NCBI GenBank assembly: GCA_015179045.1 | Contig: WHUZ01000027.1 | Span: 558,001-622,000 of the forward strand | DNA from: Kalaharituber pfeilii | Taxonomy: Eukaryota > Ascomycota > Pezizomycetes > Pezizales > Pezizaceae | Direction: 5' to 3' | DNA length: 64,000 nt | Shown here: positions 3,350-61,265 of the stretch, piece by piece | Numbering within the stretch: the stretch's first letter is position 1 | Layout of the letters: every line of letters begins with the position of its first letter | Made by a program: the position numbers and the translations under genes | Notes under the pieces: model-generated | What the model saw: only the letters and a program-made list of their open reading frames with translations | Told to the model about the DNA's origin: nothing | Databases searched by the model: none

Positions 3350-3408
3350 TTGCCCTGCCATGGCGAACAGCTGCAAGCGGGGTTACGGGAGGGAAAAAAA
3401 AAAAAAAA
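3350..3408 (+). mobile_element. Family B micro-retroposon
   Basis: A 44-nt unit, GCCCTGCCATGGCGAACAGC followed by TGCAAGCGGGGTTACG, ends in poly(A). The flanks are AGGTGAAACTAA (3338-3349) and AGGTGAACTAA (3408-3418), a target-site duplication with one indel. Confidence 0.75.
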
Positions 3409-4032
3409 GGTGAACTAACGTGTCCACGAAGGCTTGCAGATGCAAGTAAATACTCCATTCCTTCAGGAATGTGTTTGATATATGAGGTGGTTTACACCTT
3501 CCATCATGCTTCTTGGAGAGAAAACGTCGTGTTTACTGTACGGATGTACCTTACCTTTGCTAGCGAGAGGGAATTTTCTAAAGACAGCTGCCAATGGGTG
3601 ACAGCAGGCGCAGCACCTCGTAGTGGCAGGCAATAGTAATAGCAAGGAACAGCAGGTCCTTTTTTTTTTTTTTTTTCTTCTTTTTTGAGCACGTAGGCTA
3701 CGAATGGCAGGGAAACAACAAGTTCTCCCCGCCGCTAACAGCACTAATTGCCCTAAATTCACAGCGAATGAGTGAAACCTGAAGCGCGCATAAATGAATC
3801 TAGTACCAGTACTACTGATAAAATTGCTCTATCCTTTCGAATGATGTAACCAATGTATTGGTGAATCATTCGGACCTGCGCCAGATTGTGTGAATAGGTT
3901 GAGCTACGCAGCAATTCGAACGATTCAGCCATATTGGCGGATAGGTCGACCCCATTGGTCAGCCACACTCATTGGTGTATCATCGGAACAGGGATTGACA
4001 GGTGCAGGGCGCAGTTGGACAGAATCTATTAT

Positions 4033-4362
4033 AGTACTGAGTTACATCCCTCTTGGCGTACACCGAACCCCTGTCAAAAAAGACCTTGGCGACAACCGCG
4101 AATACCATCTATTATAGTACTGAGTTACATCCCTCTTGGCGTACACCGAACCCCTGTCAAAAAAGACCTTGGCGACAACCGCGAATACCATCTATTATAG
4201 TACTGAGTTACATCCCTCTTGGCGTACACCAACCCCTGTCAAAAAAGACCTTGGCGACAACCGCGAATACCATCTATTATAGTACTGAGTTACATCCCTC
4301 TTGGCGTACACCAACCCCTGTCAAAAAGGACCTTGGCGACAACCGCGAATACCATATCAACG
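4033..4362. repeat. 83-bp tandem repeat, four copies
   Basis: The motif beginning AGTACTGAGTTACATCCCTC recurs at 4033, 4116, 4199 and 4281, and a degenerate start recurs near 4361. Periods are 83, 83, 82 and about 81 bp, and the units are nearly identical apart from small indels. Open frames crossing it encode only repeated peptide and are not credible genes. Confidence 0.9.
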
Positions 4363-5019
4363 TACTGAGTGAAATGTTCACATACTCCTGAACCTCAACA
4401 TACCCCTGAACCTTCGTCATAAGGCACATATTAATGTGGAATATGCCAAACGCCCGACAATACCTATATCAAGAGTTTCCATCACATTTCGTATGGAATC
4501 AACCTTCACGGAAATAGACACCACGACAATGAGGAGTTGCAATTGGCCGTATCTATCACTGCAATCCCTTTATGTGAAATGTTCACATTCTCCAGAACCT
4601 CAACATACTCGGCATAAGATACAGAAGAATGAGCCAAATTTTATAGGTATGATATATCTCTCTCACTATCAGGAGATGAAGCATAACGAGTTCAATTTGA
4701 CAGGTACAGCAGCAACTTTCCATAGCACAATAGGAACAGAGTGAGCTGAATTTAACAGGTATAAGAGTACAATATGACTGGTATTGGATGGCACGAGATG
4801 CAGCTGAACAAGTCAAATTTGACAGGTATGGTAGGTCCATTTCACCTCGCGAGATACAGCAAAATGAGCTGAATTTGATAGGCACTTTGACAGGCACGAC
4901 AGCTCCTCAATGGTGTGAGGTGCAGCAGAACGAGTCAAATTTGACAGGTATGGTAGGTCCATTTCACCCCGCGAGATGCAGCAAAATGAGCCGAATTTGA
5001 CAGGTACTTTGACAGGCAC

Positions 5020-5157
5020 AACAGCTCCTCAATTTAACAGGCACGACAGCTCCTCAATCTAACAGGCACGACAGCTCCTCAATTTGATAGGCACGACAGC
5101 TCCTCAATTTGACAGGCATGACAGCTCCTCAATTCGACAGGCACGGCAGCTCCTCAA
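5020..5157. repeat. 25-bp subarray in the minisatellite
   Basis: A 25-bp unit (CTCAATTTGACAGGCACGAC plus AGCTC) is repeated about five to six times head to tail with few substitutions. It is much more homogeneous than the surrounding array, so it is probably a recent local expansion. Confidence 0.85.
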
Positions 5158-5542
5158 TAGTGCGACATGCAGCAGAACGAGTCAAATGTGATAGGTATGG
5201 TAGGTCTATATTACCTCGCAAGATGCAGCAAAATGAGCCGAATTTTACAGGCACTTTACAGGTATGATAGCTCCTCAATGGTGTGAGATGCAGCAGAATA
5301 AGCCGAATTTAATAGGTATAACAGTCTCCCTCAATGGCGTAAGATGTGGTCAAGTTGACAGATATGACCTTGACAGGGAAAAATGAGGCAGAATAAGCTC
5401 AATTTAACAGGTATGACAGCTTTCTCTCAATGGCGCAAGATGTGGCCGAATGAGCTCAAGTTGACAAGTATTACAGGACTCTTTCCATAGCGTAAGAGCA
5501 GCAAAATGAGCTGAATTTGACAGGTATAGTAGGTCTCTCTTG

Positions 5543-5596
5543 CCCTGCCATGGCGAATAGCTGCAAGCGGAGTTACGTGAAATTAAAAAAAAAAAG
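5543..5596 (+). mobile_element. Family B micro-retroposon in minisatellite
   Basis: The insert CCCTGCCATGGCGAATAGC, then GTTACGTGAAATT and poly(A), is flanked by a perfect 15-bp duplication AGTAGGTCTCTCTTG at 5528-5542 and 5597-5611. The target is a unit of the minisatellite. Confidence 0.9.
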
Positions 5597-6185
5597 AGTA
5601 GGTCTCTCTTGATAGCACGAGATGCAGCAAAATGAACTCAATTGGACCGGTGTGTAGGTCTCCCTTGACAATACAAGATACAGTAGAATAAACTAACTTT
5701 AACAAGTATATAGGTATGGCAAGACTCTTCTACGGCACGAGATACAAAAGAATGAGCCAAATTTCATAAGTATGGCACACCTCTCTTACCAGCGTGAGAT
5801 GTAGTAAAACGAACTCAATTTGATAGGTATAGTAGCACTTTTCCACAGGAGAGTAGCAGAGTGAGCCAAATTTAACAGGTATAATAGGACTCTTTCCGCA
5901 TTGTGAGATATAGTAGAATGAGCACAATTTGATAGTTATTCAATAGCACAAGATGCAGCAGAACGAGAGTCGAATTTGACAGATATGGCAGGTCTATTTG
6001 AGCCTGGCAGATGCAGCAGAATAAGCCGAATTTGACAGGGATTGGTAGATCTCTCTTGCTAACATGAGATACAGCAGGGCGAGCACAATTTGACAGGCAT
6101 GACAGCTCCTCAATAATGTGAGATGCAGCAGAATGAGCCGAATTCAATAGGAATGGCAGTCTCTCTCGATGGGGTGAGATGAGGC

Positions 6186-7484
6186 GGAACCTCTCCGGAC
6201 AGGCAGATTCTGCCTGCCGCTCCCGGACCTCATCAGACGATAAACTTTACGCCATGACACTGTTACACAGGTACCAACATTGTGGGGTAGGTATGATCAA
6301 TTGTTGGTACAGGCATATTGCAAGACAAGTTTTAATATGACTAGTGACGTAAGTGCGTACCGGCCCACTGGCTACCAAAAATCGGCCCATGCTGTGATCT
6401 ACTAGTTTGAATGCATGATTACTCAATTAAGTAAAAAATGAAAATGGAAAAATAATGGAAAAATAGACCTGAATTAATGAGCAGATGAAGAAACAAAAAT
6501 GAAATCTTGGGTTTCCTATAGTACCTCACTCTGTGATATTACTCCCTTATCAGTTCCTGTCACACTGCTAGTAGGCTTCGTCTTGCGGTGTCTCTTGCTC
6601 TTAGGATGTTACATTTGGAGTACACCACTCCAGATGCACAAGAGCTTATTCATTTGCAATGCGGAGCATTTTCAGGGTGTGCAATTGAGGTGCAGGTGTA
6701 GGTAGTAAAAGCTTCAGGATATCCTGCAAAACCTGACAATTTCGAAACTGCTGGATGAGTTGCGCCGCTTTACAGGCTTGAAAGTAAGCAAAGCGCTCTG
6801 CTTCTTCACTAGAAAGATTCGCATGATATTGCTCTGTTCAAATAATTTTGTTCACATAACCCCGCATACAAGCTACAAGCCTATGGCGGCGACCAAAAAA
6901 AATCACTAGAATATGTGAAGGTTGATTATCCAGCTGGCGCCGTTTGGCCATGGGTCACTAATCCACCCGTTTGCAATGATCACAATCCGGCAGCTTGAGA
7001 CATTGATGCTGTACCGTAGGTTCGGTTGATGTAGTTAATAGCTATCTAGGATGAATTAAAATGATTGGAATTGGGGTCTGCAATTCAAACAATGGTCCAA
7101 GCTTCTTGTGACATGGAGGCTTGTATTGGTACAGTAAGTAATACTACTCGTTACCAGCATTTAGTGCTGTAATAGCATGCCTTGGTTGAAAGGCTGTGGC
7201 TACATTGCTATTGACCCAGGCCCCCAAAGAGAAACGCTGCTGTTTTCCCTACAAAACTGTCCTCTCAAGAGAACGGATACCCTGCAGCCACACCAGGTCA
7301 CTGACCTCTCGCACGGACTATGCCCAGCCTCCATTTTGCATCACTAAATGCTGGTAACAAGTACCAACATTTGATCTACCTACCCCACAATGTTGGTAGC
7401 TGTGTCACAATGTCATGGCGTAAAGTTTATCGTCTGATGAGGTCCGGCAGCGGCAGGCAGAATCTGCCTGTCCGGAGAGGTTCC
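6186..7484. mobile_element. 1.3-kb long-TIR DNA transposon, non-autonomous
   Basis: The left end (6186-6310) and right end (7361-7484) are inverted repeats of about 120 bp with only a few differences. Outer tips are GGAACCTCTCCGGACAGG and its complement, and the inner limit is GTACCAACATTG-like sequence on both sides. The interior of about 1.05 kb has no transposase-like frame. Flanks share AGATGAGGC on both sides, consistent with a duplication of about 7-9 bp, but the host sequence is itself repetitive, so the duplication is tentative. Length of TIR and duplication would suit a Mutator-like MITE; that is an inference. Confidence 0.75.
6846..6891 (-). mobile_element. Family B-like 3'-end relic
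   Basis: On the minus strand this reads CCATAGGCTTGTAGCTTGTA, GCGGGGTTATGTGAACAAAA. It is the same subvariant as the insert at 56536-56595. It lies inside the long-TIR element. No clear target-site duplication is visible. Confidence 0.5.
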
Positions 7485-7860
7485 GGAGATGAGGCAGAAT
7501 GAGCTCAATTGAACAGGGTATGACAGCTTCCTTTCGATGGCATGAGATGAGCCAGAATGAGCTCAAGTTGACAAGTATCACCGGACTCTTTCCACAGTGT
7601 GAGAACAGCAGAATGAGCCAAATTTGACAGGTACGGCAGGACCCACCTGGCAGCGTGGAACATGGTAAAATGAGCTCAATTCACAGTTAAGGCTGGCCCC
7701 TTTCTATGGTGCAAAGTGAGGCGGTATGGCTCAATTTGACAGATACAACAAGACCTGCTTTGATGGTGCGAGATATGCCAAAATGGGCTCAATCTACAAT
7801 TTTACAGGTATGGCAGATTACTCTCGATAGTGTGAGATGGGGCAAAATGAGAATGCGCTG
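7485..7860. repeat. Degenerate ~50-bp minisatellite, right part
   Basis: The same unit as 4600-6185 resumes (GAGGCAGAATGAGCTCAATT, GACAGGTATGGCAG). The 1.3-kb transposon therefore split one continuous array. Confidence 0.8.
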
Positions 7861-9014
7861 GACTGGTACAGCATGGCGGGGTGATAAAGGGGCACCTGCC
7901 AAAGGTTACAATCATCGGCTACTAGCCTACTACAGTACCTACTGACTCAGGCTCCATTCCCCACCCTTTACTGTTTTTTTAAATCGCAAGCACTCTATAG
8001 ATAGCGATAGCTATGTCTACTCTTCATCATCACCCTCAGCCTTCAATTCTTCCACTTTCTCATATCCTCTTGCCATCATTCCAGCTGTATTAGTTATATC
8101 TTTTCAATTACCTTACACCTGTTAATATTCTCACTTGAATAGCATTTATACGTGGGTCTAGAGGGCGGATAAGGAAGCTGGGTACACCTAAAAGGGCATA
8201 TGCTGGACATCTGGCAATATCATTGTGGGTAGATATTAACCGGAATTTAGGTAGAGTTTATGGGCTGTAACGAGGGTTTCGCTATCCATAGGTTCTACAA
8301 TTATTAGCTCCACAAAATATATAAAATTAATACTAGAGCTCCCTGGATGCAGGAGTGGGATTACGTGATATTATAAATAACAATGAGAATATACCGATAT
8401 GAATAAATGCAGAGAAACGAGATTGTACGGCCATGGAACTGGTAAAGAGTGTGCAGTCACTTGACACCGACTTTACGGGTCCCTTATCCACTACCGCTAC
8501 ACCTACACTCACCCTCGCGGTCGCGAGGTGGCCACATGCTAGTATGTATGTACTGTACGTACTAGTAGCAGCGCCTATTCACGTCAGCCGCGTCTTCTCA
8601 TATTCTACAGGGCTGCATACAAATGTTTGCCTTGCACAAAAGCAAACAAAGTAACAAGAACAAAAAAAAATTAAAAGATAAATAAAGTAAAAAAAAAAAA
8701 AAAAAAAAAAAATTAAAAAGAAAGGAAAATGAAGAAAATGAAAGGAACAAAGATCCAGAGCAAAGGTTCGCTAACTGCTCGGGTTCCGCTCTCGCCTACA
8801 ATGTTAGGCACACCGTAGAGAGGCGCATGCAGGATATCGCTATACCCCATCCCAGTCGTTAGTGATGGCCTTAAAAATATGCGTATATGACTGTCGTAAT
8901 TGGTATTTGGATCAATTTTTGGTATGCGACGCCGGCTAAGTAAGGCTGGTAGCTCACCGGTACAGTATGCAAGGCAGACAGTTTCCATGCCATAGACTGG
9001 TGCAGCAGCAATGT
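7861..9014. other. Spacer with A-rich simple sequence
   Basis: No gene is recognised. An A-rich low-complexity block runs from about 8659 to 8755. The frame at 8713-9069 (minus) has no recognisable domain. Confidence 0.4.
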
Positions 9015-9737
9015 CAGTGCTCCCAACGGGCCGGCCATAGAAATCTAGGCCTGGGCCGGCGTGAAACATTCAGGCCATTCAGGCCATTCAGGCTGCAGTG
9101 TGAGTTAAGTTATACAGTAGCTATATACACAACGTACTTTAAATTCTACGCATACCTCATTCACTAATGTTTAGGATTTTGCTTGCTGATTTTTACACTG
9201 CCCAGTATCGCTTTCCATTAGCCATGCACAGCTTCACCATAGTGTCAAATCCAACTTTGTCAGCACCAGATTTTTGGAACCCAAAATTCCAGAAGACTCG
9301 ATATCGGCATCAGGTCGATGCAAGATCAAAACTTGAACTGCACTATGGAGAGAGAAGAATAGTAGAAAATACTAAAGGAATCATCATCGCCAGTACCGGT
9401 GGTTGGAATGTCTGTCTCCCTGCAATACTAATAAGAAATTAGTATATAGTCAAGCGATACAAAAAAAAAAATTACTTACCTGAATACCTGCGAAAAGCGC
9501 TGCTCAATAAAAAAAAAGTCTAGATAGTTATCCGAAAATATTGAAAGGTTCATATTAAATCCATGTCTAAGTAACCTGAAGGTGGCCCCTGAAATAGCCT
9601 CCCTCCTGCCCCTGAAATTGCTTGAACGGCCTGGACCGGCCTGGACCGGCCTGGGCTGTTTCAAGCCTGCCAAGCCAGGCCGCCAAGCCGGCCGGTCCAG
9701 GCGGCCTGGTCGGCGGTCTGGCCGGTTGGGAACACTG
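9015..9737. mobile_element. Possible hAT-like MITE with GC-rich ends
   Basis: The left end CAGTGCTCCCAACGGGCC (9015) and right end GGCCGGTTGGGAACACTG (to 9737) are inverted and agree at 16 of 18 positions. The CAGNG start fits hAT tips. Subterminal regions hold short direct repeats (CATTCAGGC near 9070, CCTGGACCGG near 9630). The 8 bp flanks do not match, so there is no duplication to confirm it. An ATG-started frame at 9167-9442 inside it has no recognisable product. Confidence 0.4.
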
Positions 9738-10243
9738 CTGGCGCTGGTAGCCTGTACTGTATGCTGGGTTAGTAATGTTAGGGGAAAAAAAAGCAGACGG
9801 TGAGATACTTGTAGTTTATGGTTCTGTGTAAACCACGTGACTGGTCACCTCATTTTTTTTCAACTATGTTCCAAGCCGAGCCGTTTCTGAGTGGAGTGGA
9901 CGTAGCAGCGTCGTATACGAGACCAGGCCGCATGTACAGCTTAGTCGGCCTTAGGCTTTCCCAATGACTGCCTTGCGCTTTCTATTGGTTATCGCATGCA
10001 GTTGTCACCTAATGGGTACATACTAGTAACGGTAGGCTCACAGCCTTTGCCAGAGCCCGGGAACAAAGCGGAAAAAAAAAAAAAAAGGACAGGCTTGCAG
10101 CTATGACTTTGTTAAGTGGTGACAGCGTGCAGTTGCCTAAGGATGATGTAGAACCGCAGTCATCAAGATCGGCAGTAAGATTCTCGCTGTGCACGCATGC
10201 ATGCATGCGCCCTTGGCGCTGATCACCGTCGGTGGGGGTACGG

Positions 10244-10250
10244 TATATAA
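10244..10250 (+). promoter_or_regulatory. Candidate TATA box
   Basis: TATATAA lies 42 bp before the ATG at 10292. It argues for the start at 10292 rather than the upstream in-frame codon at 10232, which would place the box inside the coding region. Confidence 0.5.
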
Positions 10251-10291
10251 CGGTTGCCAATTGTCCTAGTGTCGGCGGGCCAGTCGCAAAT

Positions 10292-16490: not shown

Positions 16491-16503
16491 ATGCGGACTG
16501 CAG

Positions 16504-16689: not shown

Positions 16690-16702
16690 ATGCGGACTGC
16701 AG

Positions 16703-18885: not shown

Positions 18886-19256
18886 GCATAAATACCGGTA
18901 CACCAGGGGTTGTGGGCAGGGGTACTGGTCAGGGAACAATGCCTGTTTTTGAAATTTGAATTGAATATTCACAAAGTAAACACAGGAATCACTACAACTC
19001 CATTTGTGTATCCTCCCATGAGCAGCAATTTCGGCAGCCATACATATAGGCATGTTTTCTAGAAGATAAAGAAAAGTATCTGCACTCAGCGAGTCCCACT
19101 CCCTCACTACAGCTTTCTACAACACACAGACCAGCCCTGCCATGGCGAACAGCTGCATGCGGGGTTACGTGAAATAAAAAAAAAACAAAAAAAAAAACAC
19201 ACAGACCACTTCACTACCCCTCCCAACAACCCCTGGTGTTCCGGTATTTATGCTGG
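18886..19256. repeat. Inverted repeat, ~45-bp arms
   Basis: CCAGCATAAATACCGG, then ACACCAGGGGTTGT, near 18886-18931 recurs as its reverse complement at about 19211-19253. The arms are about 280 bp apart and could form a long hairpin. Similarity does not extend outward. The family B insert at 19134-19196 lies between the arms. Confidence 0.65.
19134..19196 (+). mobile_element. Family B micro-retroposon
   Basis: GCCCTGCCATGGCGAACAGC, GCGGGGTTACGTGAAAT and an impure poly(A) are flanked by a perfect 12-bp duplication ACACACAGACCA at 19122-19133 and 19197-19208. Confidence 0.9.
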
Positions 19257-23956: not shown

Positions 23957-24177
23957 GAAGGATCTAACTTTCTGCTGGTGAACAAGGGGATCTAGATTCC
24001 ATGTTATAATTTGAGTAGGTCTTCTTTCTAATTTCTTTTGTACTGCCAAATACCACCTGAGATATCAGGCGAATATAGGATTAAATTACTATTTTATGCA
24101 TTCTTGTGCCTTTGCCTTACTTCGTTGCTGTTGCAATTACTTCGTCTTAATTTTTGAATCTTGTTGAGCAAGGTGTT

Positions 24178-24239
24178 TGCCCTGCCATGGCGAACAGCTA
24201 CAAGCGGGGTCACATGAATAAAAAAAAAAAAAAAAAAAA
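24178..24239 (+). mobile_element. Family B micro-retroposon
   Basis: TGCCCTGCCATGGCGAACAG, CAAGCGGGGTCACATGAAT and poly(A) are flanked by a perfect 12-bp duplication GAGCAAGGTGTT at 24166-24177 and 24240-24251. Confidence 0.92.
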
Positions 24240-24251
24240 GAGCAAGGTGTT

Positions 24252-30690: not shown

Positions 30691-32237
30691 CTACCCTTGG
30701 CCCCGCTTCCCAAAGTTGGCAGGCCGAATCCGCTCTGCTACCCTCATGCAGAAATTCTGCGTCCTGGACCACTCCTCTTTCCCGAACCAGATATCAAAAT
30801 CTGTGGGTACCACCCGCCCATTCCTGCGCGTCCCATAGAGGCCTTCCTCTAGCCTCTCCCTCTTGAGCTTCTGGCATTTCCGCATGATATGATCTCTCAT
30901 TGCCGGCTTGTCTTTCCCACAGAGAGGGCACGCTACCCTCTTGCGAGATATCTCCATGAACGCTCTCACTCCCTTGTTGGTCCAGTGCCGCAGCCCTAGA
31001 CCCCACGCCTTTGCCCCCAAGTCCTTCGCAAACTCCGCTCCATCTCGTGCCCTAACTTCTGTGACCGTAAGTTGGCCGGGACCCCCTGCATCCTCCACCC
31101 CGGTTCTACTACTGCCCTCTTGGCCTCTTTGTCCGCTCTCTCGTTCCCAGCAATCCCCAGATGTGCCGGAACCCAGATTATATATCCTTCTATGCCTTTA
31201 TCCGCCAGCTTGCTGTTCATCCTGAGGAGTTCGTGCTCCAATCTTGAGCGTGCTTTGCACTGTCCGTCCAACGCTGTCCGTACCACATATTGTGAGTCTG
31301 TCAGGATATACATCTTTCCTTTTCCGAGGCCCCTATCAGCTCGCAAGAGCGCCACCCGGCATGCCTCCAGAACCGCAGCTAGCTCAGCTACGTCGTTGTC
31401 ATATGTGTCCGGCAATGCTACCCTGTATGCCTCATACCTGTTTGACTCTTGCTCACTCACACCCCCATATGCTCCCAGTGTCGGCCTGCGGACTCTAACT
31501 GCTGCTGCCCCTACTCCAGCCTCTGAGCGGCTCCCATCCGTATACCACACCTGTGCCCCACTCCAAACCTGCTCTTCTTCCCACACTGCCACTGCAGCAA
31601 TCCACCGTTCACATTCCTCCTCCTTTGGTCGCCTCTGCTCTGTCTCTATACTTCCCAAGATTATTCCCTTTCTCCACGGCTCCCACTCCCGAGCTACGTG
31701 TAACTCGATTCTGGTGCCTAGCTCTTCCCCCACCGCCTCCTGTATCAGCTTATCAACTAGACTTCCTTTCCCTATCCTACTCCGGTTTATATGACCTGGG
31801 ACTGTTGCTATCCTAATGGCTGCTCTCCTCCGAAGCTTATCAATGTATGCATCCGTTGGTATGACCCCCAGTGCCCCTACTGCCACCTTGAACGAGACGC
31901 TCGTAGGTAACTGCAGTAGTGCCCTAACCATTCGTGTGTGCTCTTTTCTCAGTGTTTCCCGATCCTTTGTAGACTTGTATATTTCCGCTCCATAGGTAAG
32001 TGTTGGAAGTAGTATTATGTTAATTAGCTTAACTATAACATTTATCCCTAGACGTCTCTCTCTTATAGCTTGTGCCATCTGCCATGTCCGTCCCCATGCT
32101 TTCTTGACCCTTATACTTACTGTATCTTGGTAATTCCCCTTTATTGTATTCGGTGTCTTAACTCCGAGCCTCTCATATTCTCGCTTCTGATCACCGTCCT
32201 TCTCTCCTCCGTATGCAACGGTATGCCGCTTTTCCTT
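30691..32237 (-). pseudogene. LINE ORF2 RNase H and zinc-knuckle part
   Basis: The frame downstream of the micro-insert is open through the RNase H domain (aspartates in YTDGS and LTDSQ, glutamate in the AELAAVLEA region, and NERADKEAK), then shifts by one base near 31010 before the HWTNKGVRAFMEIS and CPLCGK knuckle segment. It degrades RNA of the RNA-DNA hybrid and probably binds nucleic acid. It cannot be translated as one piece with the reverse transcriptase because of the insert and the frameshift. Confidence 0.8.
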
Positions 32238-32297
32238 TGGTTTTTTTTTTTTTTTTTATTTCATTAATCGTATGCCGCCCTATGGGCTATGACGATG
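32238..32297 (-). mobile_element. Family A micro-retroposon inside LINE ORF2
   Basis: On the minus strand: CATCGTCATAGCCCATAGGG, GCGGCATACGATTAATGAAA and poly(A). An 8-bp duplication TTTTCCTT lies at 32230-32237 and 32298-32305. It is in the same orientation as the host LINE and breaks ORF2 between the reverse transcriptase and RNase H. Confidence 0.8.
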
Positions 32298-32893
32298 TTT
32301 TCCTTCCAGGTATCCTCGAACTCCTTAAGCGTATCTTCTATGAGCCCAAGAAAGTTATCCCACTGTTTGCCAGGTAATAGACCCGTAATACCTATAAACC
32401 CATCATCCATATAGGCATCCGTGTCAACCTCTATATTGTGTTTGTTCTTGATTCTCCAGTCGACTACTCGCTTTTGTTGCTCTGATAGATGTCCTATACC
32501 TGCCTTCCTCTTAGACCCACCGGAGGACCCCTGCTTAGCCATATAATCCCAGATCCTCTTCTCTAGACTCCGCCTCGCCATTCGCAGTGCCACATCCATT
32601 ACTAGGCACCAAATAAGAGGTGACGCTGGCCCTCCTTGTGGTAGCCCATTGACTATTACTGGCCTTCCCTCCCCTCCCGGCCCATCCCACTGAATCCAGG
32701 CAGTCCGTTCCGTTGCCCTATCAATCACTGCATCTGCCCATTCTACCAACTCCGGATGTGCCATTAAAGCGTATAGAACCTGTGCCCCTGACGTTCCCGA
32801 GAAGGCCGACTTGACGTCAAAATAGATACCGAGCCTAGCGTGAGTATTGAAGAAAAACAGTAGTGCCTCAAATGCCGAAAGGGGTAGGGCGAT
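32264..32893 (-). pseudogene. LINE reverse-transcriptase fragment
   Basis: Contains the conserved RT blocks DVKSAFSG, GLPQGGPASPL and YMDDGF with catalytic aspartates present. It is truncated upstream at about 32893, where poly(T) of another insert begins, and downstream by the family A micro-insert. Confidence 0.8.
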
Positions 32894-36425: not shown

Positions 36426-36702
36426 GCGGAACTATAGCTATCTTCGATTTCTTTCTCTTATTTTCCTCACTACTGACTGTTTCCTACTATTGACGGAAAT
36501 TTCCTATCACTGACTTCCAATACATAATTGATTACGGGCGACGGAGACTACTTCCTTAATTTTTCTTTTCTACTACATGTAACTAATTAGTCTCGCCATA
36601 GCCCATAGGGCGGCATGCGAGTAATGATATAAAAAAAAAAAAAAAAGAGGTCTGGTACATATAGTACTGATTCAAGTATTCACAGTCGGTAGCTATAGGA
36701 GT

Positions 36703-45070: not shown

Positions 45071-45080
45071 GTTCGCAGCT

Positions 45081-45150
45081 ATGCCCTGCCATGGCGAACA
45101 GCTGCACGCGGGGTCACGTGGAAAAAAAAAAAAAAAAAAAAAAAAAAAAG
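45081..45150 (+). mobile_element. Family B micro-retroposon
   Basis: ATGCCCTGCCATGGCGAACA, GCGGGGTCACGTGG and 28 A are flanked by a perfect 10-bp duplication GTTCGCAGCT at 45071-45080 and 45151-45160. Confidence 0.92.
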
Positions 45151-45160
45151 GTTCGCAGCT

Positions 45161-51853: not shown

Positions 51854-51866
51854 CTCCCACTAAACC
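51854..51866 (-). promoter_or_regulatory. Polypurine tract
   Basis: GGTTTAGTGGGAG on the minus strand directly precedes the LTR start, the usual plus-strand primer position. Confidence 0.65.
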
Positions 51867-52839: not shown

Positions 52840-53370
52840 GTCTCTCTCAATCTCAAGCCCTATAAACGGCGTGCAGCTCCCATATCCTTCATCTTGTATT
52901 TCTATTTCAGCCCATATAGCGCCTTTTTTAACCGGCAGACTTTCGTACTTCCACTCGCCTCAAATCCTTCCGGCTGTGCCATATCAACCTCTTCGGCTAG
53001 TTCTGGATGTAAAAGGGCAGTAACAACATCCATCTGATCTATGTCCCAATCTTTATTAGCCGCTAAGGGGCGGCACGCGAGTAATGATAAAAAAAAAAAA
53101 AAAAAAAAAAAAAGCCGCTAAGGCCATCAGCATTCTAACAGTAGCAAATTTTGGGACAGGGGCGAAGGTCTCTCTATAATTCACTTCTTCTATCTGCTCA
53201 TACCCCTTGATGACTAGCCGAGCTTTATATCGAGTGGTGCCGTCAGCATTCACTTTGATTTTAAAGTCCCACTTGCATCCAATCATACCCCCCCTTGCTA
53301 GCGGCACAACGAGCTCCCAAGTCCCGTTGGAAATCAGAGAGTCATACTCCTCTTGCATTGCTTGCTACCA
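52840..53370 (-). pseudogene. Copia reverse transcriptase, interrupted and deleted
   Basis: Upstream part (53113-53370): [59 protein letters not shown]. Downstream of a micro-insert it continues DWDIDQMDVVTALLHPELAE, then QPEGFEASG and KKALYGLK. After that a stop and a deletion remove the YVDD catalytic block, and KYKMKDMG from the thumb follows directly. Frame is exactly restored across the micro-insert if the insert and one copy of its duplication are ignored. Confidence 0.85.
53069..53112 (+). mobile_element. 44-bp family A micro-retroposon in RT gene
   Basis: GGCGGCACGCGAGTAATGAT plus 24 A, flanked by a perfect 11-bp duplication AGCCGCTAAGG (53058-53068 and 53113-53123). Only about 20 nt of unique sequence were retroposed. 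It runs opposite to the host gene. Confidence 0.95.
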
Positions 53371-53503
53371 TTCCCAGCACTCACAACTTTGTATAGCCTC
53401 CTTGTAGGCTCATCAGTGCTATCAGGTAGAGCAAGAGTCTGGTCATGTTTTCTGTAAGCCTCTGCCAGACAATTGAGTATGCGTAGCCTTGCCGGCTCAA
53501 GGT

Positions 53504-54001: not shown

Positions 54002-54332
54002 AGCCTAAGAACGTACATCTTAGAGACTTCACTTGGAGCTTTACTCTTTTCTTTGGCACGAGTATAAGGGCATTGCAGCCAAAAATTTTTGTGATGCAGC
54101 TCCAGCACCTTTCATACCACGCTTCATATGGTGTTAGCTTTCTATCATCTTTGTCTGTGACTGCTCGTGAGGGTACACGGTTTAGTAGGTAGACAGCTGT
54201 ATTAGCTGCCTCACCCCAGAATTCCTTACCGAGTCCAGAGTTACTCAGCATACTCACCACCATTTCTTGGATCAATCTGTTCTTCCTCTCACTAACACCG
54301 CTTTGGTGCTGGGTATAAAACAGATGACTCAA
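53934..54332 (-). pseudogene. Copia integrase, C-terminal part
   Basis: Encodes QSGVSERKNRLIQEMVVSML, EFWGEAANTAVYLLNRVPSR, KLTPYEAWYER and RCTFLGYV: the end of the integrase core and the GKGY-like region of copia integrases. The zinc-binding N terminus and the first catalytic aspartates are absent, because gag lies only about 330 bp upstream, so protease and half of integrase have been deleted. Confidence 0.85.
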
Positions 54333-54526
54333 ACGTGCTTCTGTTGTAGTATGCTCTTAAACCGTGCATAGTCATACTCCCCACGCCCATTATCGCGCCG
54401 GAATCTATATGTCAGTTCAATATATACCCATAGTTCAAGTGCCCAAAATGACAGTCCCATATATCGTTAGTCGGAAGACGACGATAACGAAGACAAAGCG
54501 GCGGCAGAGAAACGAGAGGATAAACG

Positions 54527-54603
54527 ACAAGGTGACAGACGACGAGGCGACAGACGACGAGGCGACAGACGGCAAGGCGACAGACGACAAGGTGACAGAC
54601 GAA
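54527..54603. repeat. Short tandem repeat GACGACAAGGTGACA
   Basis: Five to six 15-bp units (GACGAGGCGACAGAC and variants) at the junction where protease and integrase sequences are missing. Possibly a deletion footprint or slippage product. Confidence 0.7.
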
Positions 54604-54663
54604 ATAGCAAAAAATCGAAAGGTATGCTGCTCATATAGACGGATGTACCAAAGTGGTGTTTGC

Positions 54664-55609
54664 TTAATTCGATTCGGTGGTAGAGTCCTCTGACTTCGAT
54701 CTTCGGAACCGATTTCGTAATTCCTCACTCTTTTTTCGCAAATTACAATCCTTAATTTTGTGTCCCCTTCTCAGGCAGTGCCAGTATGTTAGATGTGAGT
54801 CACTTCTATTCTTATGACCACCTCTTCTACCTCTATATCCTCCTCTGCCTCTTCCTCTATCTTGAGCAACCATGACTGTGGACTGTACGGCATTTTCTTG
54901 ACCTAGCTCGAATTCTAGGAGGAGGTTCAGGGTGTAGTCAATGGTTCTGCAGTCTGCAGGTCTGTCAAGTATATAGTGTTTATAGAACTCGTACTTCGGT
55001 GTAAGTCTCTGCATTGCGTGGGTTATAAGCTGCTCATCTGTCACAGCATAATCAGTGTATGCGAGTTCGGTTTGGTAGCCCATTAGTCACCCTAGAAATT
55101 CATTGACTGATTCTGTATCTTTTATTCTATCTTCCTTGAAGGCGTTGCTTATTCGTATTGCTCGTGCGTTGTTCTTTTGCGCGCTGAGCCATTTCTCCAA
55201 CGTTTCCCATACGTCGGCAGGGTCAGAGATCTTTGAGAGCTGAAACTTAATGCGATCTGATAGCGTGGCATATATTATAGATGCAGCTTTTGACTGTCGA
55301 ACCTCAAATCTATGCTTGTGACGGGTTGGTGAGGTCGGTTGTGCTTTAGACGTTGACGACGACGACGACGACGATGATGATGATGATGTTGATGAGTCGC
55401 TGTCAGTACTTGTAGTTGGAGCCTTCTCATTCCGTAGCACTATATCTAAGAGGTTATATGACTTGAGTACAACTTCGATTTCCTTATGCCACTGCCTGTA
55501 GTTAATTTCTGTTAGCTTTGTTACTGCCTCGTACTTATCTCGATATACGTCATTGTTTGATAGCGCAACAGTGGCAGGAACAGTGGGAACGGAGGTTGTA
55601 TTCGACATT
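54664..55609 (-). pseudogene. Copia gag with internal stop
   Basis: ATG near 55609 (MSNTTSVPTVPATVALSNND). The gag domain has KLTEINYRQWHKEIEVVLKS and KISDPADVWETLEKWLSAQK, and a serine run encoded by GAC/GAT triplets. After VNEFLG a single TGA at 55085-55091 is followed in the same frame by LMGYQTELAYTDYAVTDEQL and a knuckle-like YWHCLRRGHKIKDC in which the first cysteine is replaced. TGA is one C-to-T step from CGA. Confidence 0.85.
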
Positions 55610-55619
55610 GTAGGAGAGT

Positions 55620-55745
55620 ATGTAGGTATCGTAGTATGTAGATGCAACGAGATCTATGTAGAAGTGACGAGATGTATGTAGGAGCATCGAGATGTATGTT
55701 GAAGCGACGAGGTGTATGTGGAAGTATGTTGGTGATGCAGGTAGT
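55620..55745. repeat. Tandem repeats in copia leader
   Basis: Four to five units of about 26 bp (GAGATGTATGTAGAAGCGAC-like) lie between the gag ATG and the primer-binding site, in the same position as the leader repeats of the other copia element. Confidence 0.7.
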
Positions 55746-55839
55746 AAGCTGGGCAGCTATAGAGATGTGTGGCACCAGTATAGGCGATAACGGTGTATGC
55801 GATAAGCTATAGAAAAGTGGTAGGTTAAGAAAGCGCCGG

Positions 55840-55849
55840 GCTCATAACC
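55840..55849 (-). promoter_or_regulatory. Primer-binding site, half initiator tRNA-Met
   Basis: Minus strand GGTTATGAGCCCGG directly after the LTR; same type as at 38054-38063 and extending further into the anticodon stem complement. Confidence 0.75.
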
Positions 55850-56246
55850 TGTGGTAAATTACAGATTACGAGCTAAAGTGCGGTGGGATACAGTTGATTA
55901 ATTCTTAAAGAATGACCCCAAATATGCGTCCCAAAACAGCCCTATTTATGCAACAAAATTCAGGAAGTACCTTCGTACCCAACTAAACAATTATTGGTGC
56001 AGAATGAGGTTGCGCATTATCGGGCGGCCTGCGAGTATTGATATAAAAAAAAAAAAAAAAAAAAAAAAGAGGTTGTGCATAGCAGTGGATTAAGACGGTA
56101 AAGAGGATATAATCGGGATAGGAAATAGAAGACCATAGAATCTTGAAACGTCAGTCTACATCATGGCCACAGCTCAGGTTGCATATGTTCAGCACACCCA
56201 ACCACTGTGCATGATGTTTCACTTCAGCGTTGCATATTCTTCAACA
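55850..56246 (-). repeat. Copia 5' LTR carrying a micro-insert
   Basis: Matches the 3' LTR except for the 51-bp insert and its 12-bp duplication at 56006-56080. Starts TGTTGAAGAATATGC (minus) and ends in CA beside the primer-binding site. Confidence 0.9.
56018..56068 (+). mobile_element. Family A micro-retroposon inside LTR
   Basis: TATCGGGCGGCCTGCGAGTA, TTGATAT and about 24 A. The duplication GAGGTTGCGCAT / GAGGTTGTGCAT is at 56006-56017 and 56069-56080. The other LTR is the uninterrupted empty site (GAGGTTGCGCATAGCAGTGG), proving a clean insertion. Confidence 0.95.
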
Positions 56247-56312
56247 GAGGACTCACCTGCCTAGTCAGCAACAATGGTCTGGTCCTATCCACCTCCGTCG
56301 ATTTTCACAACC

Positions 56313-56373
56313 TTTTTTTTATTTTTTTTTTATCTCACGTAACCCCACTTGCAGCTATTCGCCATGGCGGAGC
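56313..56373 (-). mobile_element. Family B micro-retroposon
   Basis: On the minus strand: GCTCCGCCATGGCGAATAGC, GTGGGGTTACGTGAGAT and an A-rich tail. Flanks GATTTTCACAACC (56300-56312) and GATTCACACAACC (56374-56386) look like a mutated duplication. Confidence 0.75.
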
Positions 56374-56535
56374 GATTCACACAACCGACAACATCCATCT
56401 CCATCATTTCTTCTGTATTGACCCTCTATCACAACCGTCATAGCTCACGAAGTTGGTATCACCTAGTTAGACTTGCGTAGCCAGTCTCCTTTTTCATGCA
56501 AGACATATCCATTGGCAGAGCGCAAGCCACAGCAA

Positions 56536-56595
56536 TCCCTGCCATAGGCTTGTAGCTTGTATGCGGGGTTTTGTGAACAAAAAAAAACCAAAAAA
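56536..56595 (+). mobile_element. Family B variant micro-retroposon
   Basis: TCCCTGCCATAGGCTTGTAG, GCGGGGTTTTGTGAAC and A-rich tail, with a perfect 9-bp duplication CCACAGCAA (56527-56535 and 56596-56604). Confidence 0.88.
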
Positions 56596-56879
56596 CCACA
56601 GCAAAGCCTATGGGCAACTTACACCTCGGTCTGACATTCGCCTCGAGGCTTGCCCGTGAATTGTCCTCAAGTATCTGAGCCTCTTCAGCCCTATGGTTTC
56701 TCTCCTTATAGCTGTTCTGGCCTACCGACGAACATTGCGGTTCGCGAACCGGCCAGGCCCATTCGCGAATCGGCCAATTCGTCGGTGGGCTGGCTGATTC
56801 GCGAATGGGCCAGCCCACCGACGAACACTGTTTTAGTACAAGTACCACTAGGTACCTCTACGTACTACCAGTGATTGAG

Positions 56880-57450
56880 TATAGAGAAACATTCTGCTAC
56901 CAGCGTTAATTGATAAGCCAGTTACTGTGTGCTAGCACAGCCCTATTGCCACTGACAAGTTGCCACCTACAAGTTGCCACTTGAAAGTTGCTGTCGGTGA
57001 TAAGTTGCTACTTCTTACCCACATACTAGAAGATAATACATACAGTTTAATTAATAATTCACTACGCTTCTAGACTGCTATAGTTAAGAATACCAATTTG
57101 TAATCATAACTTAATTATTGTTAACCGAAACACTAGAAGAAAATTACTAAATATGCTTCTAGTATTCTTCTTACTCTAAGCGAAATTTTGGAGTGTTATC
57201 TTCATAGGTAGAGATTTCCGGAATCCTCCGCCATTCTGGTATTATATTGTGGCAGTAACAGGGATTGCGTTGATGCCAAGAATGAAAAGTTTGGTGGTTG
57301 TATACCAGAAACCGTAGATAATAAGAGCCCTGCAAGTGCCAAGTACCCACTTTAAGCAACCTCATCATGGTAAAACTTGTCAAGGCAAAATTTCATGTTC
57401 TTGTCTAGGTACCTGTTCTTCTCTTCGTTGTACATGCATATGTCAAAAGG
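56880..57450. other. Interior spacer of the putative TIR element
   Basis: No gene recognised. Small direct repeats AAGTTGCCACTT / AAGTTGCTACTT occur near 56955-57015. Confidence 0.35.
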
Positions 57451-57529
57451 TTAAATGTTCTTATTCTTGTAATAAAAGCAATGCTGGTCAATGTACCAAC
57501 CAGGAGAATGAGAGTGAACATAGTGATGT

Positions 57530-57905
57530 ATATTTAGGGAAGGTCCGGAAATGGTTGGAGTCCGGAATGATAGGCTAGGCAAGACCGTGGGGATAAGGTG
57601 GCTGAGACGAAAGACCGCGCTACTGGAAGAAGGAAAAATGACCAGCTCGGTCGTGGTGTACTTGGAGGCAGCGACGGGCGTAGACAGAGTTAGGTTAGGT
57701 GGGAAATGGTTGAGGACCACTCAATACGAGCCGGACAGACGGAGGAAATAGGCTGTATTGACCAGTGTGTACATTCTACCCGCACCATGTATGAGTATTG
57801 CGGGCACCACATGTATTTAGTGACGGTTAATTTTCTTTCTTTAATAAATACCTCGCCATAGCCCATACTGCGGCATGCGAGTAATGATATAAAAAAAAAA
57901 AAAAA
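57530..57905 (+). mobile_element. ORF1-only LINE derivative, family A tail
   Basis: Encodes LGKVRKWLE, GIRWLRRKTALLEEGKMTSS, VVVYLEAATGVDRVRLGGKW and stops after QYEPDRRRK, the same stop position as the 47.3-kb copy. The 3' UTR (TGCGGGCACCACATGTATTT) and family A tail (CTCGCCATAGCCCATACTGC) with poly(A) follow directly. The 5' end is not fixed and no duplication was found. Confidence 0.8.
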
Positions 57906-58011
57906 GTACTATTGTTTGTACATAGATGACTGCATAGGGGGATAGGAGACTGTGGAAATTGCTTAGCTGGCTGTATGATAGATCACTATTACATTAAATC
58001 ATAAGCGAGTA

Positions 58012-58189
58012 CATAGGGGGGGGAGAGAACGTTGGCGGAGGTGATGGACTGGGCGGCGGAGTAACCGGTCATATTTTCACTTTATCTCCTTATCTGTTAC
58101 TTATTTTTCCGTTGATTATCATTCATGTATCTAAACCCTCGCCATAGCCTGCAAGGCGGCATGCGAGTAATGATATATAAAAAAAAAAA
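58012..58189 (+). mobile_element. 5'-truncated family A LINE 3' end
   Basis: About 160 bp of LINE 3' UTR ending CCTCGCCATAGCCTGCAAGG, GGCATGCGAGTAATGATAT and poly(A). The perfect 11-bp duplication ATAAGCGAGTA lies at 58001-58011 and 58190-58200. Confidence 0.92.
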
Positions 58190-58404
58190 ATAAGCGAGTA
58201 TATATATTACATATAGGTACATCGAGGTACATTCATGTTCGCCGCTGGGCCAGGTGTTCGTGGCTGGGCTGGCCCCGTGAAAAACGCCGTATGTTTTTCA
58301 CGGGGCCGGCCGGTTCACGAATCGGCTGGCCGGTTCGCGAACCGGAAAATGTTCGTCGGTGGGCCAGAACATAGCCAGTTTCAGGGTCGGGTATAATTGA
58401 TCGG

Positions 58405-58444
58405 CCTCGCCGTAGCCTGATAGGCGGTATGCGAGTAATGAAAG

Positions 58445-58476
<32 letters not shown>
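58405..58476 (+). mobile_element. Family A micro-retroposon
   Basis: CCTCGCCGTAGCCTGATAGG, CGGTATGCGAGTAATGAAAG and about 33 A, with a perfect 12-bp duplication ATAATTGATCGG (58393-58404, 58477-58488). Confidence 0.95.
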
Positions 58477-58479
<3 letters not shown>

Positions 58480-58488
58480 ATTGATCGG

Positions 58489-59675
58489 AGGGTCTACGGT
58501 ACGCCGGTATTCCTATCCTATATTACGTGCCAGGTGGTTGCAGCTACTCTTCGACTCTCCAGCCCTGTCTCCTAACGCAACAGTTTGCGGAATTACCGTC
58601 TGCAGCAAATCATCCCATTTATGTGTCTCCATCTGATGTCTGCAGCTCAAAGCTGACCCTCCTGAACTGACTACTGTGCACTTCATCCTCTCAACTCGCC
58701 TGGAAAGTCTTGGATCGTGCTTTTCTAGGGGGGAAAAAACGCGCTCTGTACTTCGAATTGACCCCCGTCCTTGTATGGTCTGATAAAATTACCTTATAGG
58801 CTATTGACAAGCTTTCCAACAAATTCGGCGACATGGGTGGTCCAGAAAACATTGATACACTTGGGGTCACACTCTTGCCAGAAATGCAGAGTCCCTTCTG
58901 AACGCATAAAGATCCAGCACATGCCATGTGTACACAGTTGATGCCTCGTGGGTTACGAGTTTTCCAATCGGCTACTCACCAAACAGTGTTAGAGGAAGGA
59001 CAAAGTCGATTGAGTGAAGTTTGACCTACGTACAGGAGGAAGTTCGAGACCTATTTATAATTGAGATCTCGGGTACAAAGAGAATGTAGAGACAGAAACA
59101 TCGAGAATATTGTGTTCTACCGGGATATTGCGCACAACCGGGATTTTGTGCACTTTCGGAACATGAGAATTTTTGCAGCAGTGACTGCAATTCATGTGCA
59201 AGTATTATAAAACTTAGAATAATAATTTTTTAACATGTTATAAAATATATCCTGTGCTTCAGATTGTATCTGTCAGAGGACAAAATGGTGGACTGTGCTG
59301 AAATTTACCAAATTAGATAATTGGAAACCTCTGCTTATAAAATAAATCGAGAGTAGCTAGAGTACTAATGTAGCTAATTATGTATTACTATATATTTATA
59401 ATAAGTTCAGTACTAATACAAGTATTATAGTAGAAGTGCTACTTAAAAATATTTATAAAAAGTAATAATTTAGTAGTAATTGAAGTAGATAAACTAATAA
59501 AAAAATATAATAAACTGCAGGCGGGCTGTACTGGCAGGCGGGCTATACTAGTATTAATAATCATTACTATAGTATTAATACAGATGAGGTATGTATTTTT
59601 TTTAATATCTTATAAGTAATAACTACTGAAAATCTAACTACTAAAAATCTAGGTATTATGGCTTTTCGGCGATGT
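58489..59675. other. Spacer, very AT-rich toward 59200-59660
   Basis: No gene recognised. The minus-strand frame at 58691-58927 is not identifiable. Confidence 0.4.
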
Positions 59676-59680
59676 CGTGT

Positions 59681-59915
59681 GTATATTCTTTGTCGCCGGA
59701 GACGGTCCTTAATGAAGCTGTTTTTCCTATCGCTGGAGGGGTCCTTAGTAGAGCTTTTCTTTGCTGTCGGAGGAGTTCTTTGTTGGAGCTTTTTTTCCTA
59801 TCGCCAGACGGGTCCTTGATGAAGCTGATTTTTCCTGTCGCTGGAGGGGTCCTTGGTAGAGCTGTTTTTTCCTGTGGCCGGGAGGGGTCTTTAGTGACGC
59901 TGTTTTTTTCAAACA
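59681..59915. repeat. ~50-bp tandem repeat, about five units
   Basis: Units of the type CTATCGCTGGAGGGGTCCTT, AGTAGAGCTTTT recur four to five times with substitutions. The minus-strand frame across it (59656-59931) encodes repeated KTPPAIGK-like peptide. Whether that is ever translated is unknown; I favour a non-coding minisatellite. Confidence 0.65.
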
Positions 59916-59984
59916 GTGGATGTGTGGACACACGAATGTGTGTGTGGGAGTTTGAGAGGGTGAATTGTAGGTAGAATGAGAAAA

Positions 59985-60080
59985 TTCAATTCTGAGTGGC
60001 CCGGGCCACTCATGAACCAGCGCTCCGTTGAGTAGTCCGGGCTAGTGGCCACTGGAACGTTGTTACGAATGGCCCGGCAC
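59985..60080. other. Palindromic GC-rich island
   Basis: Contains GAGTGGCCCGGGCCACTC, a perfect 18-bp palindrome, and AGTGGCCACT, in AT-rich surroundings. The style resembles the hAT-type ends elsewhere in the window. No partner end was found. Confidence 0.5.
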
Positions 60081-61193
60081 ACATATATTATGAAGTAAAT
60101 CAGAATAAAGGCATCAAAAGTATCCTTGCCAGAATTTAGTTGCTAGTAACTAATATTACATAGAGTATTCTCATGAATTATCGAATCTTTAAATGCCCCA
60201 TCCTTCCCTTAGCTCTTTTTGTGGCGCGTTTGGCCTTGACGCTCATTAGCCCACATGAATTAGCTTGCAAGTTCGTCCTAAGTTTGCAGAAGTGCAGGAA
60301 AGCATGCAGAACGTTATTTTTCTCTCCATCGCATAATTGATTTTGTCACAAATCAGCGACGCATGACGGAAGAGGGAGGTTGAATGGATCGATCAGGCTC
60401 TAGGAACGCTGAACTGATTCTCGATCTGTTATAGGTTTCTATGATAGAGTAAAAATTTGATAACAGTCAATGATGATAGCGTTGAGAGTATGTGTTCCTG
60501 GGACGCCTTTCCTTATAGGCTGCTGTGAGTTTCTCGTATTCTCTATATGTGGCATTGACCCCGCATGTAACATGACGCTGGCTCGCGCTCCATGGCTTTA
60601 CTCATGTTGTAGGTTATGCATTTGACGCTTCATCCCTCATGTGCATGTATGCCGATCTATCGTATGTAGATCCGATCACTGAGCAGCAATATCAAACTCT
60701 TGTAATATTTAGCTGTAACCAACTGTACTACCCACATTGTTCACTGGCAGCCTCACGCATCTCTCCAGAAGCATCCCCGTCTCTGTCTCGGAAGTCCTTG
60801 AAACTACTATGAGATCTCTAGTAGTTAGTAAACCACAAATAAGTCTATCTGTCACATGCCAGTCTACTATCTTGTATCAATTACATCAATCACTAGCTAC
60901 AAACTTACTTGCTAGCACGCTGCACAACACCATGTCTAGCTAGTGAAGGAAGACAAACAAATTGCAGCTAGAGAGTTTTTTTTTTTTAAATACCAGCTAC
61001 CGTGAAATGTCACGGGTTCATGTATTCTATTTCCTCTTGTTGGAAGCAACTGCCTTATGCAAATATTACTGTACTTCATGAATCCATGTACGTAGTTTCG
61101 GTTAATCATTTCTGTAGTTATATGTGCATGTTGTAATAGCATGCAAGTGTCAATTCGCTGGTAGGTTTTACAGGCGACATAAGCGGGCTGCTC
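60081..61193. other. Spacer, no gene recognised
   Basis: No coding signal. A short poly(T) lies at 60977-60987. Confidence 0.4.
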
Positions 61194-61207
61194 CTGGAAG
61201 GGGAGCT

Positions 61208-61265
61208 TTTTTTTTTTTTTTTTTTTATCACGCGACCCCGCTTGTAGCTGTTCGCCATGGCAGGG
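61208..61265 (-). mobile_element. Family B micro-retroposon
   Basis: On the minus strand: CCCTGCCATGGCGAACAGCT, CAAGCGGGGTCGCGTGAT and poly(A). The perfect 14-bp duplication CTGGAAGGGGAGCT lies at 61194-61207 and 61266-61279. Confidence 0.95.

Follow-up and report, generated by a model that had tools for sequence, protein, structure and literature searches.

Terminal stem-loops of LINEs retroposed as units of about 45 nucleotides in Kalaharituber pfeilii: evidence suggesting a 5' edge fixed by RNA structure

A stretch of 64,000 nucleotides of the Kalaharituber pfeilii genome (assembly GCA_015179045.1, contig WHUZ01000027.1, positions 558,001 to 622,000; hereafter the window) contains eight inserts of roughly 45 letters followed by poly(A), which raise the question of where such short copies come from and what makes them begin at practically the same letter. 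The initial annotation of the window regarded them as a separate family of micro-retroposons with a fixed 5' end and target duplications, and suggested as their source either a discrete transcript or a defined point at which reverse transcription halts. All eight are present, none of them more than a few bases from the position then given, and a search of the 78.0-Mb, 360-contig assembly revealed many hundreds of inserts of this size cut at the same letter. The finding holds and is stronger than first stated; instead of a separate family, however, the unit proved to be the 3' terminal stem-loop of resident long interspersed nuclear elements (LINEs), its tail being shared with longer copies, as are seven of nine recurrent haplotypes. 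The inserts, called micro copies below, are a LINE product of the truncated-copy type, the rule behind which looks structural, and the results suggest that RNA structure rather than chance fixes where the copies begin.

The LINE families are named by the sequence upstream of the unit, whose start is marked here by a slash: F1 (...GGACTTCGGTCCAGGGA/CCCTGCC), F2 (...GGGT/CCCTGCC), F3, F4, and F5 (...GGGTCTAGACCCAGGGG/CCCTGCC). In the F5 tail, the micro unit corresponds to the final stem-loop, CCCUGC...GCGGGG, followed by TYACGUGA and by poly(A) at a fixed 3' end, with a median first A-run of 17 (range 0-33). Longer copies bear the same tail, just as the tail of a short interspersed nuclear element (SINE) is common to it and a LINE. 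In F5, the frame upstream of one tail copy codes for Exo_endo_phos_2 (PF14529) and RVT_1 (PF00078) domains and the next frame for RNase_H (PF00075), and two copies are 99.7% identical across 3.2 kilobases (kb); it is a LINE, putatively of the Tad1-like fungal type. Another LINE, at 30996-32400 of the window, was rejected as the source, the tail not being seen in its 3' sequence as read. With long and short copies counted together, the exact 14-mer GCCCTGCCATGGCG has 1858 matches in the 78 Mb (its reversed control has 0), and the wider family comprises 3651 copies with at most three mismatches in a 23-mer. The F5 marker GACCCAGGGGCCCTGCC is found in 262 exact genome copies, 40 of which were examined, and the F1 context GGACCCTGCCATGGCG in 284. 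The anatomy of the inserts and their origin from LINEs are considered nearly certain.

The 5' edge was assessed in two samples, the T-sample with 90 of the 1211 exact genome copies of the 3' 14-mer GCGGGGTTACGTGA (contigs C1-C12) and the C-sample with 60 of the 1237 of the 3' 14-mer GCGGGGTCACGTGA (contigs C1-C6); being anchored at the 3' end they carry no 5'-end bias, but they represent the first contigs only and copies with an exact 3' 14-mer. In the C-sample 51 of the 60 copies begin at a recognisable unit start without LINE-type sequence upstream, eight run on into it, and one is of another kind, while the T-sample holds 52 long, 29 micro-like, and nine other copies, the micro-like set including one (L051) that is really a long F4 copy. 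The base preceding the unit (-1) is that of the F5 template, G, in 49 of the 51 micro copies of the C-sample, and the base at -2 agrees with the template in nine, which is background. The commonest haplotype was followed genome-wide; its 3' 21-mer occurs in 448 exact copies and its 38-mer in 368, of which 363 have G at -1, 84 have GG, and 41 the LINE context CAGGGG. The templated G is kept by 322 of the 327 copies without this context, among which a long copy mutated within the five context bases would also be counted. The edge is sharp to one nucleotide. The -1 base tracks the LINE template, being G for F5 and T for F2-type copies, and a cap-derived G was ruled out, as F5 LINE copies have that G and F2-type short copies the T of their own LINE. 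Derivation of the micro copies from F1 is unsupported in the sample, the -1 base being mostly A in F1 and mostly G in micro copies (the 49 of 51 above and 21 of 25 scored in the T-sample). Scattered truncation points, as expected of 5'-truncated LINE copies, are not displayed by the micro copies, and the fixed 5' end claimed at the outset is borne out.

Target-site duplications (TSDs), scored when exact, at least 7 base pairs (bp) long, and with an end between -4 and +6 relative to the first C, accompany 66 of 87 micro copies (80 sampled and seven from the window), against a mean of 2.46 and a maximum of 7 when the 3' flanks were redealt 200 times; the 87 include a duplicated locus (L073/L075, both with a TSD) and the misfiled L051, which has none. 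The TSDs measure 12-14 bp in 44 of the 66, and those of at least 9 bp, the duplicate removed, have a median of 13 (n = 61), with A as the first base in 38 and T as the preceding base in 29. Empty sites were sought by joining the flanks across the insert and comparing them with sequence gathered in the analysis. Among 62 sites tried, two have a paralogous empty counterpart, gap-free over 200 bp (L101 against L001, 96.5%; L126 against L032, 97%). The remaining spanning matches either had a smaller extent, a lower identity, or gaps, or involved the very site that was tried. Retroposition with duplications and poly(A), as initially described, is confirmed by these data, and neither a missing 5' peak nor a missing excess of duplications, the outcome that had been named as speaking against the idea, was met with genome-wide or in the samples.

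The position of the edge coincides with a structural landmark. The terminal helix is CCCUGC/GCGGGG in the F families and CUCGC/GCGAG in a further family, G, and the 5' end of the copies lies at its base or one nucleotide outside. An alignment on one common structure of 21 stem-loops out of 24 extracted, picked to span F1-F5 and G, has 93.2% of its cells paired, absolute pairing being favoured since the rows were picked by motif. Two-sided changes occur in 23 cells, compared with 6.6 in shuffled alignments (0 of 500 reach 23) and at most 8 when the structure was slid, and the covariation score is 0.316 against 0.156 for shuffled and at most 0.103 for slid versions. Two-sided changes affect three pairs of the outer helix, for one of which a single sequence is responsible; further pair types are not in excess (9 against 9.5 in shuffles), and in 10 of the 21 sequences one inner pair does not form. 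The 3' terminal stem-loop is conserved, as in the tail of a stringent-type LINE. The F2 and family G stem-loops have GCCATAG and ATGCG in common, so the F and G stem-loops are probably related; family G, a candidate LINE family known here from its tail, appears diverged rather than unrelated.

A second edge was found further upstream in F5. Repeats of at least 9 bp were detected in 38 of 101 longer copies (control mean 6.8, maximum 15), a few of which, as in family G below, are due to chance according to the controls. Sixteen of the 38, all F5-type, end at -36 to -41, the copy starting at or next to AAGCCTG. Folding from this edge predicts a hairpin, AAGCCUG(CCUC)CGGGCUU, which starts at that very base in eight of nine extracted copies (with six pairs in one) and is followed by a small middle hairpin and then by the terminal stem-loop; an earlier pairing scheme for the second stem-loop, CCUG/CAGG, was dropped, as folding predicts AAGCCUG/CGGGCUU. 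Other ends are scattered, those of F1 lying at -468, -526, -615, -887, and -1322 to -1425, with -581 and -696 doubtful. F1 (L028, L029, also L030) is itself an element of ca. 1.4 kb, two copies of which are 99% alike over 1.38 kb and have TSDs at -1340 and -1322; it contains a frame similar to open reading frame 1 (ORF1) and an F-type tail, no reverse transcriptase was noticed in its translation, and by its sequence it looks like an ORF1-only nonautonomous LINE, presumably of the HAL1-like type. F3 (L012, L068, L098), with TSD-dated starts at -154 to -207, is perhaps a distinct nonautonomous family of about 200 nucleotides.

Truncation of the same kind is seen outside F5. The F2-type sequence GCCATAGGCTTGTAGC has 102 genome copies, and among 20 loci examined one is in LINE context, seven have one repeated flank and are non-independent, and 12 are independent, one of the latter (L009) belonging also to the T-sample. 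The independent copies have T at -1 in 11 of 12 cases (L212 is ambiguous), and the G of the LINE at -2 in 0 of 11, as judged by eye; an exact TSD of at least 8 bp is present only in L206 and L211. Family G (tail GCGAGTAATGA) is represented by 54 3'-anchored copies that turned up unsought, either in the window or in loci retrieved with another aim. Repeats were found in 22 of them (control mean 2.2, maximum 5), and of the 22 starts dated in this way ten lie at -24 to -28, the base of the family's own hairpin, and eight at -70 or beyond, spanning -70 to -248. The 45 nucleotides upstream of the family G hairpin, folded alone, give 0 to -1.2 kcal/mol in five of six longer copies and -4.8 in one. 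Occurrence of the same truncation in F2-type copies and family G looks like a structure-set rule and not the property of one lineage. Some family G copies (at 53077 and 56031 of the window, L011, L013, and L022) start at or near GGGCGGC, on the 3' arm of the inner hairpin; it is a possible further preferred stop, with TSDs called for 53077, L011, and L022 only.

The bases found between duplication and unit bear on how the copies end. Twenty copies whose TSD measures 9 bp or more and ends before the base at -1 contain 29 extra bases, T15 C10 A3 G1, i.e. 25 pyrimidines, compared with A9 T8 C8 G4 at the corresponding place downstream. In the 70 micro copies bearing the -1 G, the -2 base is T in 35, C in 18, G in 10, and A in 7 (T or C in 53 of 70), and -3 is flat; all 18 G-bearing copies with a TSD ending at -2 to -4 have a pyrimidine at -2. 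On the complementary DNA (cDNA), T and C at the junction correspond to A and G. The R2 reverse transcriptase adds predominantly untemplated adenosines when the deoxynucleoside triphosphates are balanced, with the most addition on a blunt-ended duplex (PMC8857657). The junction pattern would fit run-off where a template ends, perhaps aided by pairing of the added base with the target.

On balance we lean, if lightly, towards the view that the inserts are retrocopies of LINE 3' stem-loops, made by target-primed reverse transcription (TPRT), with a 5' end set by RNA structure and a template that often ended already at the hairpin base. What is copied is no more than the terminal stem-loop of resident LINEs, F5 above all, together with TYACGTGA and poly(A), and the reaction would be carried out by the LINE's own enzymes. 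The template would often be a 3' fragment with its 5' end at the hairpin base, arising from 5'-to-3' decay or cleavage halted by the hairpin or by a protein bound to it; as such a fragment retains the hairpin and poly(A), which on this reading are all that target priming needs, it would remain a substrate. The enzyme would copy to the end of the fragment, often adding an untemplated A or G, and the copy would then be joined to the target. For R2, loss of template from the 5' end has been proposed, folded structure being seen as an obstacle to 5'-3' exonucleases (PMC11331408). A shortened template is favoured by the one-nucleotide edge, the untemplated bases, and the lack of stable structure just upstream in family G.

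Several observations weigh against this view. A free 45-nucleotide RNA is only surmised from the genomic copies, and release of the enzyme at the hairpin base would yield the same edge, while bases may be added at stops, too. Copies whose TSD reaches -1 likewise show a surplus of T and C at -2 (12 T and 6 C, 18 of 25), so part of the pyrimidine excess may reflect a joining preference. Hairpins do not leave an edge without exception, none having been seen at the middle one predicted in the F5 tail. Four TSD-dated starts of family G, at -4 to -11, fall within the hairpin region, a position that stalling of the enzyme could produce. Long copies often belong to F1, whose -1 base is A, and only two of the 25 scored micro copies of the T-sample share that base (L018, in which the A may be part of the TSD, and the F3-like L082). 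Exact TSDs of at least 7 bp are lacking in 21 of the 87 micro copies, and 38 of the 80 sampled ones have no exact long counterpart; 27 of these 38 are one or two mismatches off, four (L016, L037, L089, L097) five or more, and three differ in length. The coding part of family G was not found among the listed frames of L205 and L036, none of which could be tied to the G tail.

The main rival, possible if rather doubtful, is abortive TPRT, in which the enzyme would work on intact LINE RNA, tethered to its terminal hairpin, and let go one nucleotide past the helix once it had copied and thereby destroyed it, and again past a further hairpin. It would account for edges at the helix base in two diverged tails and for the two-step ladder of F5, and the family G starts within the hairpin region fit stalling; moreover, the template-switch sites of a Magnaporthe LINE have strong predicted hairpins immediately upstream, read as pausing sites (PMC2104539). 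The precision of one nucleotide in 363 of 368 copies and the untemplated pyrimidines, however, look more like the end of a template, and with the weak folding upstream of the family G hairpin there is nothing obvious to stall the enzyme. The two alternatives proposed initially, a discrete transcript and a reverse transcription stop at a defined point, are still the right ones; sequence alone does not choose between them.

A true micro-SINE, i.e. an RNA of 45 nucleotides transcribed from its own promoter at several master loci and moved in trans through the LINE tail, is improbable. The exact start would agree with it, as would the ca. eight to one prevalence of copies without LINE context over those with it (327 against 41 of the 368 of the commonest haplotype, mutated long copies being counted among the former). 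However, 45 nucleotides would leave little room for the usual internal promoter, and no head of the RNA polymerase III type was detected in the 64-kb window with the eight inserts (ARAGORN 0 tRNA, Rfam 0 families), results with which a promoter of another, upstream type would be compatible. The -1 base follows each LINE, and the same truncation occurs in family G. Recurrent haplotypes, too, are mostly common to longer copies: the haplotype of 42 of the 80 sampled micro copies is also found in a longer copy, and the two exceptions among the nine present in at least two micro copies are the duplicated locus L073/L075 and a haplotype (L045, L079) with no exact match in the long sample but one mismatch from a long copy. 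A single SINE lineage is weakened both by these haplotypes and by family G; judging from the haplotypes, the sources of the micro copies are many. Ordinary random 5' truncation, frequent near the 3' end and in keeping with the scattered ends of other copies (F1 at -468 to -1425, family G at -70 to -248), is refuted by the single start common to 51 of 60 3'-anchored copies, with identity at background one base further.

Of the features of the window (Table 1), the common unit with a fixed start stands for seven of the eight inserts, the one at 56536 having a sister tail (CCCTGCCATAGGCTTGTAGC..., F2-type); the start is G/CCCTGCC in six inserts, G/CTCCGCC in that at 56313, and T/CCCTGCC in that at 56536. 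The direct repeats that had been reported are perfect at six inserts, 9-15 bp in length, while those at 3350 (ggtgaaactaa vs. ggtgaactaa) and 56313 (ggttgtgtgaatcg vs. ggttgtgaaaatcg) are imperfect, called by eye, and not returned by the TSD script. The extra T (24178), TT (3350), and AT (45081) sit between duplication and unit. The insert at 58405-58441 is a further one of the same kind, with a diverged tail, beyond the eight originally listed.

Table 1. Micro copies and related tails in the window (positions counted from its first letter; a slash marks the start of the unit)
Feature	Positions	Strand	Duplication or remark
Insert 1: TT + GCCCTGCC...unit + poly(A)	3350..3408	+	imperfect repeats 3339-3349 / 3409-3418, by eye
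Insert 2: unit + poly(A)	5542..5596	+	perfect 15-bp TSD AGTAGGTCTCTCTTG 5528-5542 / 5597-5611; its final G may belong to the unit instead
Insert 3	19134..19195	+	perfect 13-bp TSD AACACACAGACCA 19121-19133 / 19196-19208
Insert 4, one extra T ahead of G	24178..24239	+	perfect 12-bp TSD GAGCAAGGTGTT 24166-24177 / 24240-24251
Insert 5, extra AT ahead of G	45081..45150	+	perfect 10-bp TSD GTTCGCAGCT 45071-45080 / 45151-45160
Insert 6	56313..56373	-	unit 56335-56373, start G/CTCCGCC, poly(A) below unit; imperfect repeats, by eye
Insert 7, F2-type tail T/CCCTGCCATAGGCTTGTAGCTTGTATGCGGGG	56536..56595	+	perfect 9-bp TSD CCACAGCAA 56527-56535 / 56596-56604
Insert 8	61208..61266	-	unit 61228-61266; perfect 14-bp TSD 61266-61279 / 61194-61207
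Family G insert, CCTCGCCGTAGCCTGATAGGCGGTATGCGAGTAATGA + poly(A), starts at own hairpin base	58405..58476	+	perfect 12-bp TSD ATAATTGATCGG 58393-58404 / 58477-58488
Family G terminal stem-loop in a longer copy, for comparison	36591..36627	+	similar upstream sequence in other copies, by eye
F4-type tail CTGCCATAGGCTGAGAGCC...GCGGGGTTACGTGA with F4 upstream sequence, long copy	3057..3096	+	

The insert at 5542 is hosted by a unit related to diverged tandem repeats with a period of about 122, which occupy 4795-5319 and about 5400-6076 of the window. A conserved protein encoded in the window has its nearest match, counting named proteins, in Tirmania nivea (64% identity), which points to a probable fungus of the order Pezizales. 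An F2-type hairpin copy at 6862-6891 lies inside another multicopy repeat, met also at L210, L213, L217, L218, L220, L221, and L223, so that a single insertion was apparently multiplied by a second element. At L013 and L014 several micro units are stacked within about 120 bp, one adjoining the poly(A) of an earlier unit, as in nested or tandem insertion. On contig C1, 26 of 33 exact 5' matches fall within roughly the first 600 kb of 3.0 Mb, a strong clustering that suggests compartments.

The results touch two old questions, namely the cause of the 5' truncation of LINEs and the origin of SINE tails from LINE tails. Truncation is here non-random: in a single genome it strikes hairpin bases many times over, and it does so in two diverged tails. 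If the proposed reading is true, the genome holds a nucleotide-exact record of LINE RNA ends or of reverse transcription stops across diverged tails, and hairpin fragments would be ready-made seeds for SINE tails; whether the template is already shortened or the enzyme lets go becomes directly testable at the bench. The size of an abundant retroposed unit is lowered to about 40-45 nucleotides plus poly(A), a length likely to escape repeat annotation. No report of hairpin-only LINE copies was recognised in the literature searched, which was largely at the level of titles and abstracts. The proposition that the LINE recognition hairpin alone is the smallest abundant mobile unit known to us, and that LINE RNA fragments left at the edges of stable hairpins are regularly inserted, seems evenly poised between true and false.

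In stringent-type systems SINEs carry a separate head, whereas here the stem-loop alone is the insert, and its binding by the F5 protein is putative. The stringent-type LINEs UnaL2 and ZfL2-1/ZfL2-2 have a 3' stem-loop recognised by the LINE protein, and they are similar to the present elements in the conserved 3' stem-loop next to the tail, the compensatory changes, and the nonautonomous copies sharing the stem-loop (PMC4176376). LINE-tailed SINEs and the tRNA- and 5S-derived SINEs of fungi (PMC5063351) are alike in shortness, TSDs, and presumed mobilisation by a resident LINE; the micro copies differ from them in that no promoter-bearing head was found, in their 45 nucleotides, in probably not forming one lineage, and in ending at the base of a helix. 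The untemplated bases, here T and C on the sense strand, resemble those at the cDNA 3' end in R2, which nevertheless belongs to another clade and was studied in vitro (PMC8857657). The chimeric retroelements of Magnaporthe have template-switch hot spots near hairpins, with MGL parts of 230-5461 nucleotides and a GCC*A/U motif; like the elements described here they stem from a fungal LINE in which reverse transcription is prone to break at certain positions linked to predicted hairpins, but there the break yields chimeras (PMC2104539), while K. pfeilii showed none and has its break at the foot of the terminal hairpin. The micro copies agree with 5'-truncated LINE copies in the 3' end, poly(A), haplotypes, and TSDs; the ends of the latter are scattered, whereas here the truncation point coincides with a helix base and does not vary by more than one nucleotide.

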